NCBI RefSeq assembly: GCF_000023325.1 | Contig: NC_012785.1 | Location: 992,001-1,056,000 of the forward strand | Direction of reading: 5' to 3' | Length of the DNA stretch: 64,000 nt | Source of the DNA: Kosmotoga olearia TBF 19.5.1 | GTDB taxonomy: Bacteria > Thermotogota > Thermotogae > Petrotogales > Kosmotogaceae | In this document: positions 13,454 through 18,964 of the stretch, piece after piece | Layout of the letters: every line of letters begins with the position of its first letter | Numbering within the stretch: the first letter of the stretch is position 1 | Notes under the pieces: model-generated | Told to the model about the DNA's origin: nothing | Database searches by the model: none | The model's input: the letters and a program-made list of their open reading frames with translations, nothing else | Position numbers and translations under genes: made by a program

Positions 13454-13561
13454 TTTTGAATTGAGGGATTGGGCTTGTTAGTAAAAAACTTGAATTCCAG
13501 AGAGCATTTGTGTGACAATAACTACGTCAGGTCAACTCATCTCATCCTTAGGGGGGATTGT

Positions 13562-14623
13562 ATGAAAAAGCTTGGTTCGTTCGGATTAATTCTGCTAATG
13601 GGGCTGTCAATCTTTGCACTCAAAATTGGGTTCGTTTATGTTGGCCCTGTAAGCGATGCTGGGTGGTCGTATGCACACGATCAGGGTCGCCAATACCTGG
13701 AGAAAATTTTCCCGGGCATCGAAACGATGTATTTCGAGGCCGTGCCTGAAGGTGCGGAGTCTGTGGCAAGAATCAGGCAATTGGCCGCTGACGGTTGTGA
13801 CATAGTCTTTACAACAAGTTTTGGCTATATGGATCCAACCCTTGAAGTCGCAAAGGACTTTCCCGATACTATCTTCATGCATTGTTCAGGATTCAAAAGA
13901 GCCGAAAATGTGGGAACATACTTCGGAAGAATCTACCAGGCTGATTTCCTCGTCGGCATGGTAGCTGGTGCGATGACAAAAACAAACATTATCGGCTATG
14001 TTGCCCCGCACCCAATTCCCGAAGTGGTCAGAGGTATAAACGCTTTCACTCTCGGTGTTAGAAAAGTAAATCCGTATGCTGTCGTCAAGGTCGTCTGGGT
14101 TAACGCATGGTTCGATCCCGCCACAGAGAAAGAAGCTGCTCTCAGTTTGATAGAAGCTGGTGCAGACGTTGTAGCCCACGGTCAGGACTCTCCCGCTGTG
14201 AACCAAACAGCACAGGAACATGGTGTCTGGTCGATAGGTTACAACAATGATATGTCAGCTTTTGCGCCGGAATCTCACCTCACAGCGGCAATCTGGAATT
14301 GGGGCCCGCTTTACGAGAAAATAGTGAAAAGTGTTATCGATGGTACGTGGAAAAGCGAAGATCTGTGGCCTGGCCTTGAAATGGGCGTTGTGGACATAGC
14401 TCCCATCCATTCTGCTGTACCCCGCCCCATAAGAGCTTTTGTTGAAACCTATAAGAAAAGAATTGCCCTCGGACAATATAAAATATTTGAAGGACCTATA
14501 AAGGATCAAAATGGCGAGGTCAGAATACCCGAAGGGGTAGTACCAAGTGACGAAGAGCTTCTCTCCATGTACTGGTTTGTAGAAGGAGTAGAAGGAACAT
14601 TACCAGAATCACCTGTGGAATAA
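13562..14623 (+). CDS. BMP/PnrA-family ABC transporter substrate-binding protein
   Basis: 353 residues. The signal peptide is MKKLGSFGLILLMGLSIFAL, without a lipobox cysteine, so the mature protein is periplasmic. KIGFVYVGPVSDAGWSYAHDQG opens the basic membrane protein (Bmp) fold, and YFGRIYQADFLVGMVAGAMT and VVAHGQDSPAVNQTA are typical of nucleoside-binding PnrA relatives. Start: ATG at 13562, four bases after GGGGGGAT; an upstream ATG would extend into sequence without coding character. It heads a four-gene transporter operon with two permeases and a double ATPase. Purine nucleosides are the best substrate guess; related systems also take up other small molecules. Confidence 0.9.
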   Translation: MKKLGSFGLILLMGLSIFALKIGFVYVGPVSDAGWSYAHDQGRQYLEKIFPGIETMYFEAVPEGAESVARIRQLAADGCDIVFTTSFGYMDPTLEVAKDFPDTIFMHCSGFKRAENVGTYFGRIYQADFLVGMVAGAMTKTNIIGYVAPHPIPEVVRGINAFTLGVRKVNPYAVVKVVWVNAWFDPATEKEAALSLIEAGADVVAHGQDSPAVNQTAQEHGVWSIGYNNDMSAFAPESHLTAAIWNWGPLYEKIVKSVIDGTWKSEDLWPGLEMGVVDIAPIHSAVPRPIRAFVETYKKRIALGQYKIFEGPIKDQNGEVRIPEGVVPSDEELLSMYWFVEGVEGTLPESPVE

Positions 14624-14633
14624 GTGAAAAGCT

Positions 14634-16544
14634 ATGCGTAAGAGCCTGTTATTACTCTCCATAGTTGCTATCACAACAGCGTTTATCGTTTCCGGAATAT
14701 ATCTGGCAGAAGTGCAAAAAGGCACTTCTGCTGTTTATTCTGAGCTGAAAAACCTATGCGATGAATTCGTCACTGGTATCGAAGGGGATGTTGAAAACAT
14801 AAAAGAAGTAATTTCTGATTATACCTATAGCTTTTCCTTTTCTTCCAATAAGTTGAGTGAGTTTGTGGCCGGTTTGCAAAACAGAATAGAAGGCCAGGAT
14901 TTTTACATCGTTTTGAATAGTGGTGACCAGGTTGACGCCTTTGGCTATTACAAACTGGTTCCAGGAAGCTTTTTCCCGCTCGATGAAAGGAAAGAACCGT
15001 GGTTCCTAAAAGCCAGAGAGTTTTCAGAAAATGTTTATATCAGTTGTATATACCTTGAAAGAGGGAAACTTTATGTTGATATCTCCTTCGATATTGGAAA
15101 CATTGAAGGTGTTCTGAGAGTAACCAGGATACCTCTGAACAGTGCAACAAAGTATCTCACCAAAAAAGAACGATACGGCATGGTGTTAACGGATAAGGAT
15201 TTTGTAGTTATAGCCTCGAACGACTATCAAAAAGGATCAAAAGTACCTGCTCTTGAAAAAGTTTCAGAAGGATTAAACAAATTCGATTCCGGTGATACAT
15301 GGCTGGTAAAAAAACTGAGCATTTCTGGACAAACGCTGTCTACGGCTTTTTATGTAAACAAGGATATCATTGAATCACAGAAGAAAAAATTAAGGGAACG
15401 TTATACCCTTTGGGTGTTGATTTTGATAGCGCTGGAAATGCTATTCTACATATTCATTATTAGAAGGAGATATGTAATAACCATAGAGGAAAAGGAAGAA
15501 AGCTCAAAAAGCATTATAGTCCCGATAATCTCTCTTTTTGTCGCCCTTGGAATCATAGCGGTGCTGATCTTGATTTTTGGTGAAAACCCACTTTACGGTA
15601 TAAGGGAAATGTTTTCATACGCTTTCCTCAGCAGAGCGGGGCTTTCTGAAACGCTCAACAAAGCTGTTCCTATAACGATAGATGCTTTTGGCCTCGCTAT
15701 TGCTTTCTACGCCGGGCTCTGGAATATAGGGATGGAAGGGCAATTTTACCTTGGGGCCATTGGAGCAGTATGGATATCTGTCTTTCTCATACCCGGTGCA
15801 CCTGTGTGGATATATTTCATAATCATCCCGCTTTTTTCAATCCTTATGGGAGCTATCTGGGGACTGATTCCAGGGTTCCTGAAGGTAAGATTTGGAGTAA
15901 ATGAAATTCTATCGACCCTCATGTTCAACTATGTCGCCATAAGAATCGTGGATTATCTTGTTTACGGACCGTGGAAAAGCTCGTCTGTTAGAAACTTCCC
16001 GCTTTCAGATCCGATACCAGTTAAACTTCCGAAAATTCCAGGTACAGATGTGCATGTCGGGATATTCCTGCTTCCCGTTATAGCCTTGTTGTTGTGGTTC
16101 GTGTTTCAAAAAACAACCTTAGGATTCAAATGGAAAGCGATAAGGCTTAACAACCGGGCTGCCCGTTATGCCGGAATGAACCCCAGACGATTCTTGCTCT
16201 TAGCAATGGTCATAAGTGGAGCCTTTGGAGGGCTTTCAGGAGCAATTCATATGATGGGCGCACAATATGTACTTCAATCCCACTTTTCACCAGGCTATGG
16301 CTACACAGCTATCATTGTTGCCTGGTTGTCCGGGTTAAATCCCTGTGGAATTATGATTTCCGGACCGCTTCTCGCGGGGCTTTTCGTAGGAAATGCGAGG
16401 TTAGAATTATTGATGAAATTTCCTGTGGCAGTTTCCAGTTTCTTCCAGGGAATTGTTCTGCTGACGCTTTTAGTCGGGGGATTCTTGCAGCGTTATCATG
16501 TTAAAGTAATCCCCCGCACCGGGAAGGTGAAACAACATGTCTGA
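14634..16544 (+). CDS. Cache-like sensor domain fused to nucleoside-type ABC permease
   Basis: 636 residues, about twice the length usual for this permease. Residues 5-25 form a membrane segment and 26-255 an extracytoplasmic domain with the double-Cache hallmark DERKEPWFLKA (117-127) and GMVLTDKDFVVIASND (182-197). A second membrane segment follows at 257-276. From about residue 294 the protein is a full BPD_transp_2 permease: NIGMEGQFYLGAIGAVW, RFGVNEILSTLMFNYVA, GFKWKAIRLNNRAARYAG and SGAFGGLSGAIHMMGAQ. No stop or frameshift separates the parts. The start has a weak site, ten bases after the binding-protein stop. The Cache domain may sense substrate or gate transport; this is inference. 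Confidence 0.85.
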   Translation: MRKSLLLLSIVAITTAFIVSGIYLAEVQKGTSAVYSELKNLCDEFVTGIEGDVENIKEVISDYTYSFSFSSNKLSEFVAGLQNRIEGQDFYIVLNSGDQVDAFGYYKLVPGSFFPLDERKEPWFLKAREFSENVYISCIYLERGKLYVDISFDIGNIEGVLRVTRIPLNSATKYLTKKERYGMVLTDKDFVVIASNDYQKGSKVPALEKVSEGLNKFDSGDTWLVKKLSISGQTLSTAFYVNKDIIESQKKKLRERYTLWVLILIALEMLFYIFIIRRRYVITIEEKEESSKSIIVPIISLFVALGIIAVLILIFGENPLYGIREMFSYAFLSRAGLSETLNKAVPITIDAFGLAIAFYAGLWNIGMEGQFYLGAIGAVWISVFLIPGAPVWIYFIIIPLFSILMGAIWGLIPGFLKVRFGVNEILSTLMFNYVAIRIVDYLVYGPWKSSSVRNFPLSDPIPVKLPKIPGTDVHVGIFLLPVIALLLWFVFQKTTLGFKWKAIRLNNRAARYAGMNPRRFLLLAMVISGAFGGLSGAIHMMGAQYVLQSHFSPGYGYTAIIVAWLSGLNPCGIMISGPLLAGLFVGNARLELLMKFPVAVSSFFQGIVLLTLLVGGFLQRYHVKVIPRTGKVKQHV

Positions 16545-17469
16545 ACTTCTTTCTATTACAACCGATCTGGCAAAAGCAGCCGTGAGAGCAGGAACTCCAT
16601 TACTATTCGCGGCCGCCGGCGAGCTATTAACGGAGCGCTCCGGTGTACTCAACCTTGGAATCGAGGGAACCATGTTAATGGGTGCGATAACAGGGTTTGC
16701 TGTCGCAGTTCAAACGGGAAACCCTTACTTCGGAATACTCGCAGCAGCAGTAGTTGGAGCTATTTTTGGATACATATATTCTCTTTTTGTGGTAAATATG
16801 GGGCTCAATCAGGTTGTTACAGGTCTCGCCTTTATGATGATTGGAACTGGCCTGAGTGGTTATATAGGGAGAGCTTATGTTGGAATAGGTTTGAAAAACT
16901 CTCTAAAGCCCATAGAAATCCCATATCTTTCAAAGATTCCGGTTCTCGGAAAAGCCCTTTTTTCCCAAGATATACTCGTTTATTCATCTATAATCCTCAT
17001 CGCATTACTCCATTACTGGTTATTCAAAACACAGAATGGCCTGCACCTAAGATCCGTAGGAGAATCGCCAGAAACAGCAGATTTCACAGGTATAAACGTT
17101 TTCCTTACCAGACAGTTCGCGACTTCATTAGGAGCAACTATAATCGCTGTTGGAGGGGCTTATATTTCCATCGCCTATTCTCCTCTGTGGGTGGAGAATA
17201 TGACAGCCGGAAGAGGCTGGATAGCTCTCGCTCTGGTCATCTTTGCCGGCTGGAGACCATGGAGGGCTTTGCTGGGTGCATATCTTTTCGGGGGAATCTC
17301 CGCATTGCAGTATCGTGCGCAGGTTTTAAATGTGAAGCTTTCCCCCTACATTATGGATATGTTCCCGTACCTGCTTACTGTACTGATAATGATTTTCATA
17401 TCCTCTGAAGCTGCAAGGCGGAAACTCGGTGCGCCTTCAGCAATTGGAATACCTTACAGGAGAAGATAG
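16537..17469 (+). CDS. Nucleoside-type ABC transporter permease, second subunit
   Basis: 310 residues with about eight hydrophobic segments. Signatures are RAGTPLLFAAAGELLTERSGVLNLGIEGTML near the N-terminus and AGRGWIALALVIFAGWRPWRALLGAYLFGG near residue 225, both typical of the BmpC/NupQ type of BPD_transp_2 permease. It overlaps the preceding fusion gene by 8 bases. It has no Cache extension, so the sensor is present once or twice per complex depending on stoichiometry. Confidence 0.92.
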   Translation: MSELLSITTDLAKAAVRAGTPLLFAAAGELLTERSGVLNLGIEGTMLMGAITGFAVAVQTGNPYFGILAAAVVGAIFGYIYSLFVVNMGLNQVVTGLAFMMIGTGLSGYIGRAYVGIGLKNSLKPIEIPYLSKIPVLGKALFSQDILVYSSIILIALLHYWLFKTQNGLHLRSVGESPETADFTGINVFLTRQFATSLGATIIAVGGAYISIAYSPLWVENMTAGRGWIALALVIFAGWRPWRALLGAYLFGGISALQYRAQVLNVKLSPYIMDMFPYLLTVLIMIFISSEAARRKLGAPSAIGIPYRRR

Positions 17470-17470
17470 T

Positions 17471-18964
17471 ATGCAAATCAAAATGGAGGGTATTGTCAAG
17501 AAGTTTGGTTCTGTTGTTGCTAACTCCCAAGTAGACTTTGATGTACTGCCCGGTGAAGTACACTCGCTACTCGGGGAAAACGGTGCAGGAAAAACAACTC
17601 TGATGAAGATCCTGTACGGAATACACATTCCGGATGAAGGAAAGATATTCATCAACGGAGAAGAGAGTTTCATACAATCCCCGCGTATTGCTCTTGAAAA
17701 AGGTATTGGCATGGTTCAACAGCACTTTTCATTGGTACCATCTTTCAGTGTATTCGAAAACGTTATACTGGGGCTTAAAAGTAGAGAAAAGCTCGATAAA
17801 TTGAGAAGAGCCGTTGAGGAAATTATTGAAAGGTTTCATCTCGGACTCGATCTGGATACAAAGATCTGGCAGCTCTCGCACGGGGAAAAACAAAAAGTGG
17901 AAATCCTTAAGTTTCTGTATCGCGATGTGGACCTACTGATCCTCGATGAACCCACGTCGGCCCTCGCACCATCCGAGGTGTATTCTCTCTTTGACATAAT
18001 CCGTGAGTTGAAATCAACGGGAAAATCTGTCGTATTCATAACCCACAAATTGGAAGAGGTTTTTACCGTTTCAGACAGAATAACCATTCTTAGAACGGGA
18101 AAGAAAATTGCCACTGTGGACGCTACAAGCGTTTCACCCCAGGAAGTCGTCAAGATGATGGTTGGGGAATACACAATCATTGAGAAATTCCCGAAAAACA
18201 TCGGCAAAGAGATTTTAAGGGTAAGAAACTTCACAGTTATTGGGGATAGGGGGACACCCGCAGTTAGAAATATCTCTTTCGATTTAAGAGCCGGCGAGAT
18301 TCTCGGGATAGCCGGTGTTGAAGGCAACGGGCAACGCGAGCTTGCAGAAGGGCTCTACGGTTTGCGGACCTACGATGGGGAAATATTTCTCCATGGAAAT
18401 CACGTGAGAATAAACTCTCCCCAAAAAGCCCTCTCATACGGGATAGGTTATATACCTGAAGATAGATTTGTGACAGGGTTGATACCGGATCTATCGGTTA
18501 GTGAAAATATCGTTCTTAAGTCGATAAGTGGCACCCCATTTTCATCAAAAGGGATTATCAACCGGGAGAAAGTCAGGAATTTTTCCGAAAAGGTGGTGAA
18601 AAAATACAGGGTATCACTTCCTTCTATATGGGCACCGATAAAGAAACTGTCAGGCGGTAACGCTCAAAAGGTTCTGGCGGGAAGGGAACTGGAGGCTCCG
18701 TTGAATCTTTTGATAGCTGTTAACCCCACTAATGGACTTGACGTAGCCTCAACCGAACATATTCATAAATTACTACTGAAAACAAGTCAGAATGGAATCC
18801 CTGTCTTACTTATTTCCACCGATCTCGAAGAAATATATAAGATTTCTGATATCATAGTAGTAATGTATAAAGGTAAACTGACAAAAAGGATAGAAGCATT
18901 ACCTGAAAACCAGGAGCTTATCGGTCAATTAATGGCCGGGGTGAACTTCGAGAAATACCTTTAA
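17471..18964 (+). CDS. Double ATP-binding protein of the nucleoside-type ABC transporter
   Basis: About 497 residues with two ABC domains. In the first, Walker A is GENGAGKTTLMK (about 37-48), the signature LSHGEKQKVEIL and Walker B LLILDEPTSAL. In the second, Walker A is degenerate (GVEGNGQRELAE), the signature is LSGGNAQKVLAGREL and Walker B is LLIAVNPTNGLD, where Asn replaces the catalytic Glu context. Asymmetric domains are normal for this RbsA/NupO-like type. Start: ATG at 17471, one base after the permease stop, with AGGAGAAG in front; an in-frame ATG 42 bases upstream would lie inside the permease gene. It energises the two permeases. Confidence 0.92.
   Translation: MQIKMEGIVKKFGSVVANSQVDFDVLPGEVHSLLGENGAGKTTLMKILYGIHIPDEGKIFINGEESFIQSPRIALEKGIGMVQQHFSLVPSFSVFENVILGLKSREKLDKLRRAVEEIIERFHLGLDLDTKIWQLSHGEKQKVEILKFLYRDVDLLILDEPTSALAPSEVYSLFDIIRELKSTGKSVVFITHKLEEVFTVSDRITILRTGKKIATVDATSVSPQEVVKMMVGEYTIIEKFPKNIGKEILRVRNFTVIGDRGTPAVRNISFDLRAGEILGIAGVEGNGQRELAEGLYGLRTYDGEIFLHGNHVRINSPQKALSYGIGYIPEDRFVTGLIPDLSVSENIVLKSISGTPFSSKGIINREKVRNFSEKVVKKYRVSLPSIWAPIKKLSGGNAQKVLAGRELEAPLNLLIAVNPTNGLDVASTEHIHKLLLKTSQNGIPVLLISTDLEEIYKISDIIVVMYKGKLTKRIEALPENQELIGQLMAGVNFEKYL

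Follow-up and report, generated by a model that had tools for sequence, protein, structure and literature searches.

Cache domains have been described as the dominant extracellular sensors of prokaryotes, where they feed signaling outputs (PMC4822843). Why, then, would one subunit of an importer carry such a domain on the outer side of the membrane, and what could it do there? The question is raised by a gene on the forward strand (14634..16544) of the window, the 64,000-nucleotide stretch of the genome of the thermophilic bacterium Kosmotoga olearia TBF 19.5.1 analyzed here. The gene starts with ATG, runs to its stop codon without an internal stop, and encodes a protein of 636 residues. The initial annotation had read this protein as a membrane-bounded domain placed ahead of a complete permease, and the single frame, the transmembrane (TM) helices and a Pfam match to BPD_transp_2 at residues 338–612 (E=1e-42) bear out that description. 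Hydropathy places TM1 at residues 4–22 (14643..14699, forward strand, as for all features below), where the structural model forms a helix over residues 2–66. TM1 is N-terminal to an extracytoplasmic dCache-fold domain of residues about 28–255 (14715..15398), in which the previously proposed DxRxxPWFLKA-type hallmark is present as D117-E-R-K-E-P-W123-F-L-K-A127 (DERKEPWFLKA, residues 117–127; 14982..15014). Within this hallmark, the three fused proteins, namely the window protein and two relatives from MAGs, agree without exception at D117, E118, R119, and W123. The hydropathy-based TM2 (residues 258–276; 15405..15461) leads back to the cytoplasm, and the model helix 243–285 continues unbroken across it.

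Hydropathy and sequence further place an RRR motif and a short polar linker after TM2, followed by permease helices from residue 294, and the complete BPD_transp_2 permease domain identified by Pfam occupies residues about 294–627 (15513..16514). The positive charges C-terminal to TM2 agree with a permease N-terminus predicted to lie inside the cell. Unfused paralogous permeases of 350–400 residues align end to end with residues 280–630 of the fusion; the fusion thus adds a TM-domain-TM module, and the permease N-terminus stays inside. Pfam gave no significant match in residues 1–279, and sequence and Pfam inspection revealed no output domain after TM2 except the permease, with neither a HAMP nor any further signaling domain in between. 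The arrangement is asymmetric, as had been suspected, since the sister permease (16537..17469; 310 aa) matches BPD_transp_2 (E=3.4e-31) at residues 18–285 and has no such extension.

An unusual architecture could also arise by artefact, if a missed stop or a mis-assembly had joined two genes, or could be a passive fusion without function. The narrow distribution of the architecture, found in 3 of 103 Thermotogota genomes (G000, G043, and G053), would be compatible with such an origin, but the genome is a single contig, the frame is intact, and the MAGs UBA12178 and B41_G15 of uncultured Thermotogota (G043 and G053) encode orthologues (L066/L003, 623 aa; L067/L002, 629 aa) that keep the fusion architecture at 39–40% identity to the window protein over the full length. 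These two independent orthologues share an identical junction, which contradicts a missed stop or an assembly error, and the two-gene explanation against which the initial annotation had guarded was not borne out. We therefore consider an artefactual or functionless fusion highly improbable.

The search for the same architecture in other genomes, which the annotation had proposed, thus showed that the fusion recurs, and in our phylogenetic tree the permease domains of the three fused proteins form one clade with support of 100/100, while the partner permeases of the three operons group more weakly (89/80). An unfused paralogous permease is also present in each of the three genomes. The simplest reading of these sequence relationships is that the fusion arose once, within a separate subfamily of transporters, and then spread either vertically with losses or horizontally. 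Contig scans with single-protein and alignment queries, which detect near-exact short motifs so that distant fusions may escape, recovered only the two MAG fusions and an unfused Chloroflexota permease (L068). A search of 301 Chloroflexota genomes gave no match at E 0.001, a result of little weight given that no positive control exists there, and no fusion was matched among plasmids and viral contigs. Separately, L015 and a match on G004:C87 are homologues of the first permease with internal TGA, TAG, or TAA codons in their alignments, possibly reflecting pseudogenes or end effects.

Is the N-terminal domain indeed a Cache domain? Taken by itself, the window protein gave no match to PF02743 (dCache_1), for which the Pfam gathering cut-off is 45 bits, and the Cache assignment accordingly needed further tests. 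The MAG orthologue L002 matches PF02743 with an E-value of 4.7e-5 and 23.5 bits, below the 45-bit cut-off. An AlphaFold2 run on residues 1–286 with the two MAG relatives yielded a domain model with a mean pLDDT of 67.1, in which the core scored 70–89 and residues 101–114 and 187–222 were poor, the latter stretch, in the membrane-proximal lobe, falling below 50. The predicted order of elements is a long helix, a distal alpha/beta lobe, a small second lobe, and a long exit helix. Foldseek against the PDB returned 34 matches at E <= 0.001, and among the 50 matches listed essentially all were Cache or tandem-PAS sensors, with Tlp3 (6e-6) at the top and Mlp24 also present. VIA-align 2 gave a Z of 12.2 over 196 residues to PctC, its rows being dominated by dCache structures, and Z values of 9–12 over about 200 residues were obtained across Cache-type structures. 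The TM-scores were moderate (about 0.4–0.5) because the domain model is of middling quality.

In support of the structural matches, hhalign of the three fused domains against 13 Thermotogota dCache domains reached a probability of 95.8% (P 7e-9), and 30 column-shuffled control profiles never rose above 1%. When the domain profile was searched across the phylum, the three fused proteins were followed directly by the Cache-HD-GYP proteins L040 and L041, whose hallmark takes the form DPR(K/E)RPWYKAA. A sequence search of the PDB with the same profile gave no significant match, the best relevant hit being Mlp37 (6iov, E 0.48), which, at this non-significant score, aligns partly at the DxRxxWY region. 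The permease gave no match against the PDB, and an AlphaFold model of the full-length fusion (pLDDT 36.6) was left unused. Together, the model, the structure matches, the profile alignment, the orthologue's PF02743 match, and the phylum-wide search establish homology to dCache domains. The Cache fold put forward in the initial annotation is hence upheld, with low confidence for the proximal lobe, which is small and, in the MAG relatives, has about 13 fewer residues; on the predicted fold and the profile comparison, we place the domain in the Cache superfamily and do not file it under PF02743. The same genome also encodes two closely similar proteins with weak dCache_1 scores (L036 and L037; G000:C1 at about 113.8 and 789 kb), which by eye are HD-GYP-type Cache proteins and not transporters.

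The genes around the fusion define the machine to which the domain belongs. A BMP/PnrA-type substrate-binding protein (13559..14623; Pfam Bmp E=2.9e-69), two BPD_transp_2 permeases, and a double ABC ATPase (17468..18964, probable start ATG 17468; ABC_tran E=1.9e-44 in two stretches) are encoded together and make up a complete BMP-type importer set. The operon is tightly packed, with an overlap of 8 bases between the fusion and the second permease and of 2 bases thereafter. The binding-protein frame is listed from TTG 13469, and ATG 13559 is the likelier start, being accompanied by a GGGGGG ribosome-binding site and a signal peptide. Most BMP proteins are lipoproteins, and no lipobox Cys was seen in this one. 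The nearest named NCBIfam models are those of a putative B6 transporter (NF047927-30), with the ATPase closest to ABC_ATP_B6, and all four subunits score below the equivalog cut-offs of these models. The window also contains kamA and a fab cluster, in agreement with the genes Kole_0958 to Kole_0973 described in PMC5674127.

In each of the three genomes, the BMP gene immediately precedes that of the fused permease. This retention indicates that the Cache domain has not taken the place of the binding protein, and the earlier suggestion that it might replace contact with the binding protein is unlikely.

What the importer carries is best approached through this binding protein, whose closest solved relative is AtzT (PDB 6pi5, E=1.7e-106), followed by Brucella 3s99. 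Binding by AtzT is at 0.11 uM for guanine and 2.5 uM for adenine, and adenine was modeled in the 3s99 structure (PMC6834077). With the AtzT numbering offset set by demanding a match of all seven purine-contact residues, four of the seven are kept in the binding protein (Ser97, Phe98, Glu165, and Trp194 as S87, F88, E155, and W184), one is an aromatic swap (Tyr45 to Trp36), and two are changed (Asn218 to Gly208 and Asn220 to Asp210), so the exact base preference may differ from that of AtzT. In the MAG B41_G15, an adenine deaminase gene (TIGR01178, above cut-off; L058:1804-3435) lies between those of the second permease and the ATPase. An AtzT-like binding protein and an adenine deaminase in the MAG operon make a purine base the most likely substrate, and the system is probably an importer for purine bases, with nucleosides as possible substrates. 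The nucleoside-type reading of the permease is corrected to this extent: within the BMP-type class of nucleoside/nucleobase importers, a purine base is a likelier cargo than a nucleoside. Elsewhere in the MAGs, the genes after the unfused paralogue (L059:977-1834 and L060:1151-2008) look by eye like a molybdopterin-dehydrogenase FAD-binding-type subunit and a nucleotidyltransferase, neighbors which suggest a possible purine (xanthine dehydrogenase) link there too.

In a strong form of the gating that the initial annotation had considered, the Cache domain might bind an extracellular small molecule, perhaps the imported purine or a co-metabolite, and switch uptake on or off. Such ligand gating would be in keeping with dCache domains being ligand sensors, some of which bind purines (PMC11245519), with the probable purine-base cargo of the importer, and with the preservation of W123 and the following aromatic residue, which are common to the amino-acid, amine, and purine motifs. 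The known motifs themselves speak against it. The dCache_1AA amino-acid motif YxxxRxWY (PMC9901441) is not found in the distal lobe of the fused proteins; the corresponding stretch of the window protein reads D117xxxE121xW123F124, and the Arg position is occupied by Glu121 here and by Glu in both relatives. Similarly, the dCache_1PU purine motif, defined by Y121, R129, W140, F167, and D169 of McpH with variants such as YRWFN and YKWYN (PMC11245519), is matched by W123 and perhaps Y105, and the equivalents of R129, F167, and D169 lack the required residues; this comparison was mapped by sequence spacing from the W and not by structure, making it a fair but not final negative. A purine-sensing Cache domain on a purine importer is thus unsupported by motif evidence. 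Overall, we view gating by an external ligand as rather unlikely, and we would extend the same doubt to its corollary that the signal reaches the permease through the membrane helix of the Cache domain, so that the importer would serve as its own receptor and need no kinase, chemoreceptor, or second messenger.

Since neither the amino-acid nor the purine motif is found, a ligand-free docking or coupling role becomes a serious rival. Here, ligand binding would have been lost, and the Cache fold would serve only to keep the binding protein in place or in the right orientation above the two permeases, or to stabilize the complex. The loss of the known motifs and the reduced proximal lobe favor this explanation, as do the rapid divergence of the domain and the binding protein retained in every fused operon: between the two MAGs, identity is 51% in the Cache domain and 80% in the permease, and between the window protein and the MAGs it is 25–26% and 49–51%, respectively. 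No firm dN/dS could be derived, because synonymous sites are saturated. There is also a precedent in MalF-P2, judging by titles cited in PMC3328499. On the other side, the three fused proteins show no variation at D117 to R119, at W123, or in the proximal ASN-x-Y-x-x-G, a degree of constraint that exceeds what a mere spacer would need. We regard a purely docking or structural role as possible though somewhat unlikely. Judged by sequence, the faster divergence of the Cache domain, its reduced proximal lobe, and the unmatched ligand motifs could also mean relaxed function; both domains are conserved although diverged.

In both MAGs, the region upstream of the fused importer (L057:1505-3709 and L058:7409-9616) encodes a histidine kinase together with a response regulator of the OmpR type and a two-TM protein of 230 residues, the last of which has a C-terminal HAMP-like segment by eye and no Pfam match; divergently oriented to these three genes is a pst-like phosphate-binding gene. 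Could the Cache domain act as part of a transceptor, reporting substrate availability to another regulator and not to transport? The position of the response regulator, the Cache-less histidine kinase, and the short membrane protein just upstream of the binding-protein gene would fit this scenario, but the window's genome has galT and galK upstream of the operon and no adjacent regulator genes, and the MAG regulator pair, adjoining the phosphate gene, may belong with that gene instead. We consider this role improbable.

Taken together, our preferred reading, which we hold to be evenly balanced, is that the domain acts on the extracytoplasmic side as an accessory or regulatory element and tunes transport; this statement covers parts of both the ligand-gated and the docking explanations, so that its probability overlaps with theirs. 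One permease subunit would have gained an N-terminal TM-dCache-TM module of the kind found in chemoreceptor and HD-GYP/cyclase sensors, probably once, in the ancestor of the fused clade, and joined ahead of the permease's cytoplasmic N-terminus, a position that preserves the membrane orientation. The long C-terminal helix of the Cache domain is predicted to cross the membrane and run directly into the permease, which would couple helix to permease. With the permease as the sole element C-terminal to the domain, a signal could pass only to the permease itself, to the binding protein, or to another partner. The Cache domain may contact the binding protein, an extracellular small molecule, or both, and this contact would move the permease between a resting and a transporting state, in the manner of the periplasmic P2 domain of MalF or of an allosteric input. 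The narrow distribution of the fusion, the fast change of its Cache part, the reduced proximal lobe, and the unmatched ligand motifs weigh against this reading.

How does the fusion compare with known systems? With the dCache_1 sensors (PF02743: PctA/PctC, Mlp24, Tlp3, and KinD, as well as L040 and L041 of Thermotogota), it shares the fold, the long N-terminal helix, the DxR..(P/D)W(F/Y) hallmark, and the two flanking membrane helices. However, their outputs are MCP, kinase, HD-GYP, and cyclase domains, whereas that of the fusion is an ABC permease, and the fusion further differs in falling below the Pfam threshold, in its small proximal lobe, and in not matching the known ligand motifs. With BMP/PnrA-type importers, including the unfused paralogue L061 of the same genome, it shares all four gene products, the order of the two permeases, and a permease domain that aligns end to end, and the TM-Cache-TM module is present on the fusion alone; the operon's binding protein matches AtzT (6pi5) and Brucella 3s99 over the whole length. 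MalF-P2 is a loop inserted within MalF and has an unrelated fold, whereas the fusion's Cache domain is an N-terminal sensor-type module. Even so, MalF-P2 is the nearest functional precedent, since it, too, lies on the extracytoplasmic side of a single member of a permease pair and is reported, judging by titles cited in PMC3328499, to communicate substrate availability.

The broad Cache survey (PMC4822843) lists known signal-transduction outputs except SMP_2 and discusses the calcium-channel alpha2-delta subunits, and the words 'transporter' and 'permease' are absent from it. The literature searched, which included few subscription papers, yielded no paper uniting a Cache domain and an ABC permease in one protein. 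The parts are thus known, and their conserved combination is apparently unreported so far. The fusion suggests that the importer may itself be sensing its environment. A Cache domain on an importer would offer a compact natural test of direct transport regulation by sensor modules, with the unfused paralogous importer of the same genome as an ideal internal control. In the alpha2-delta subunits of voltage-gated calcium channels, dCache_1 domains are also tied to a transport protein, although these are separate auxiliary eukaryotic subunits with a VWA domain and with the amino-acid motif in the first dCache_1 domain (PMC9901441). To these Cache domains of calcium channels, a Cache-importer would offer a bacterial parallel.
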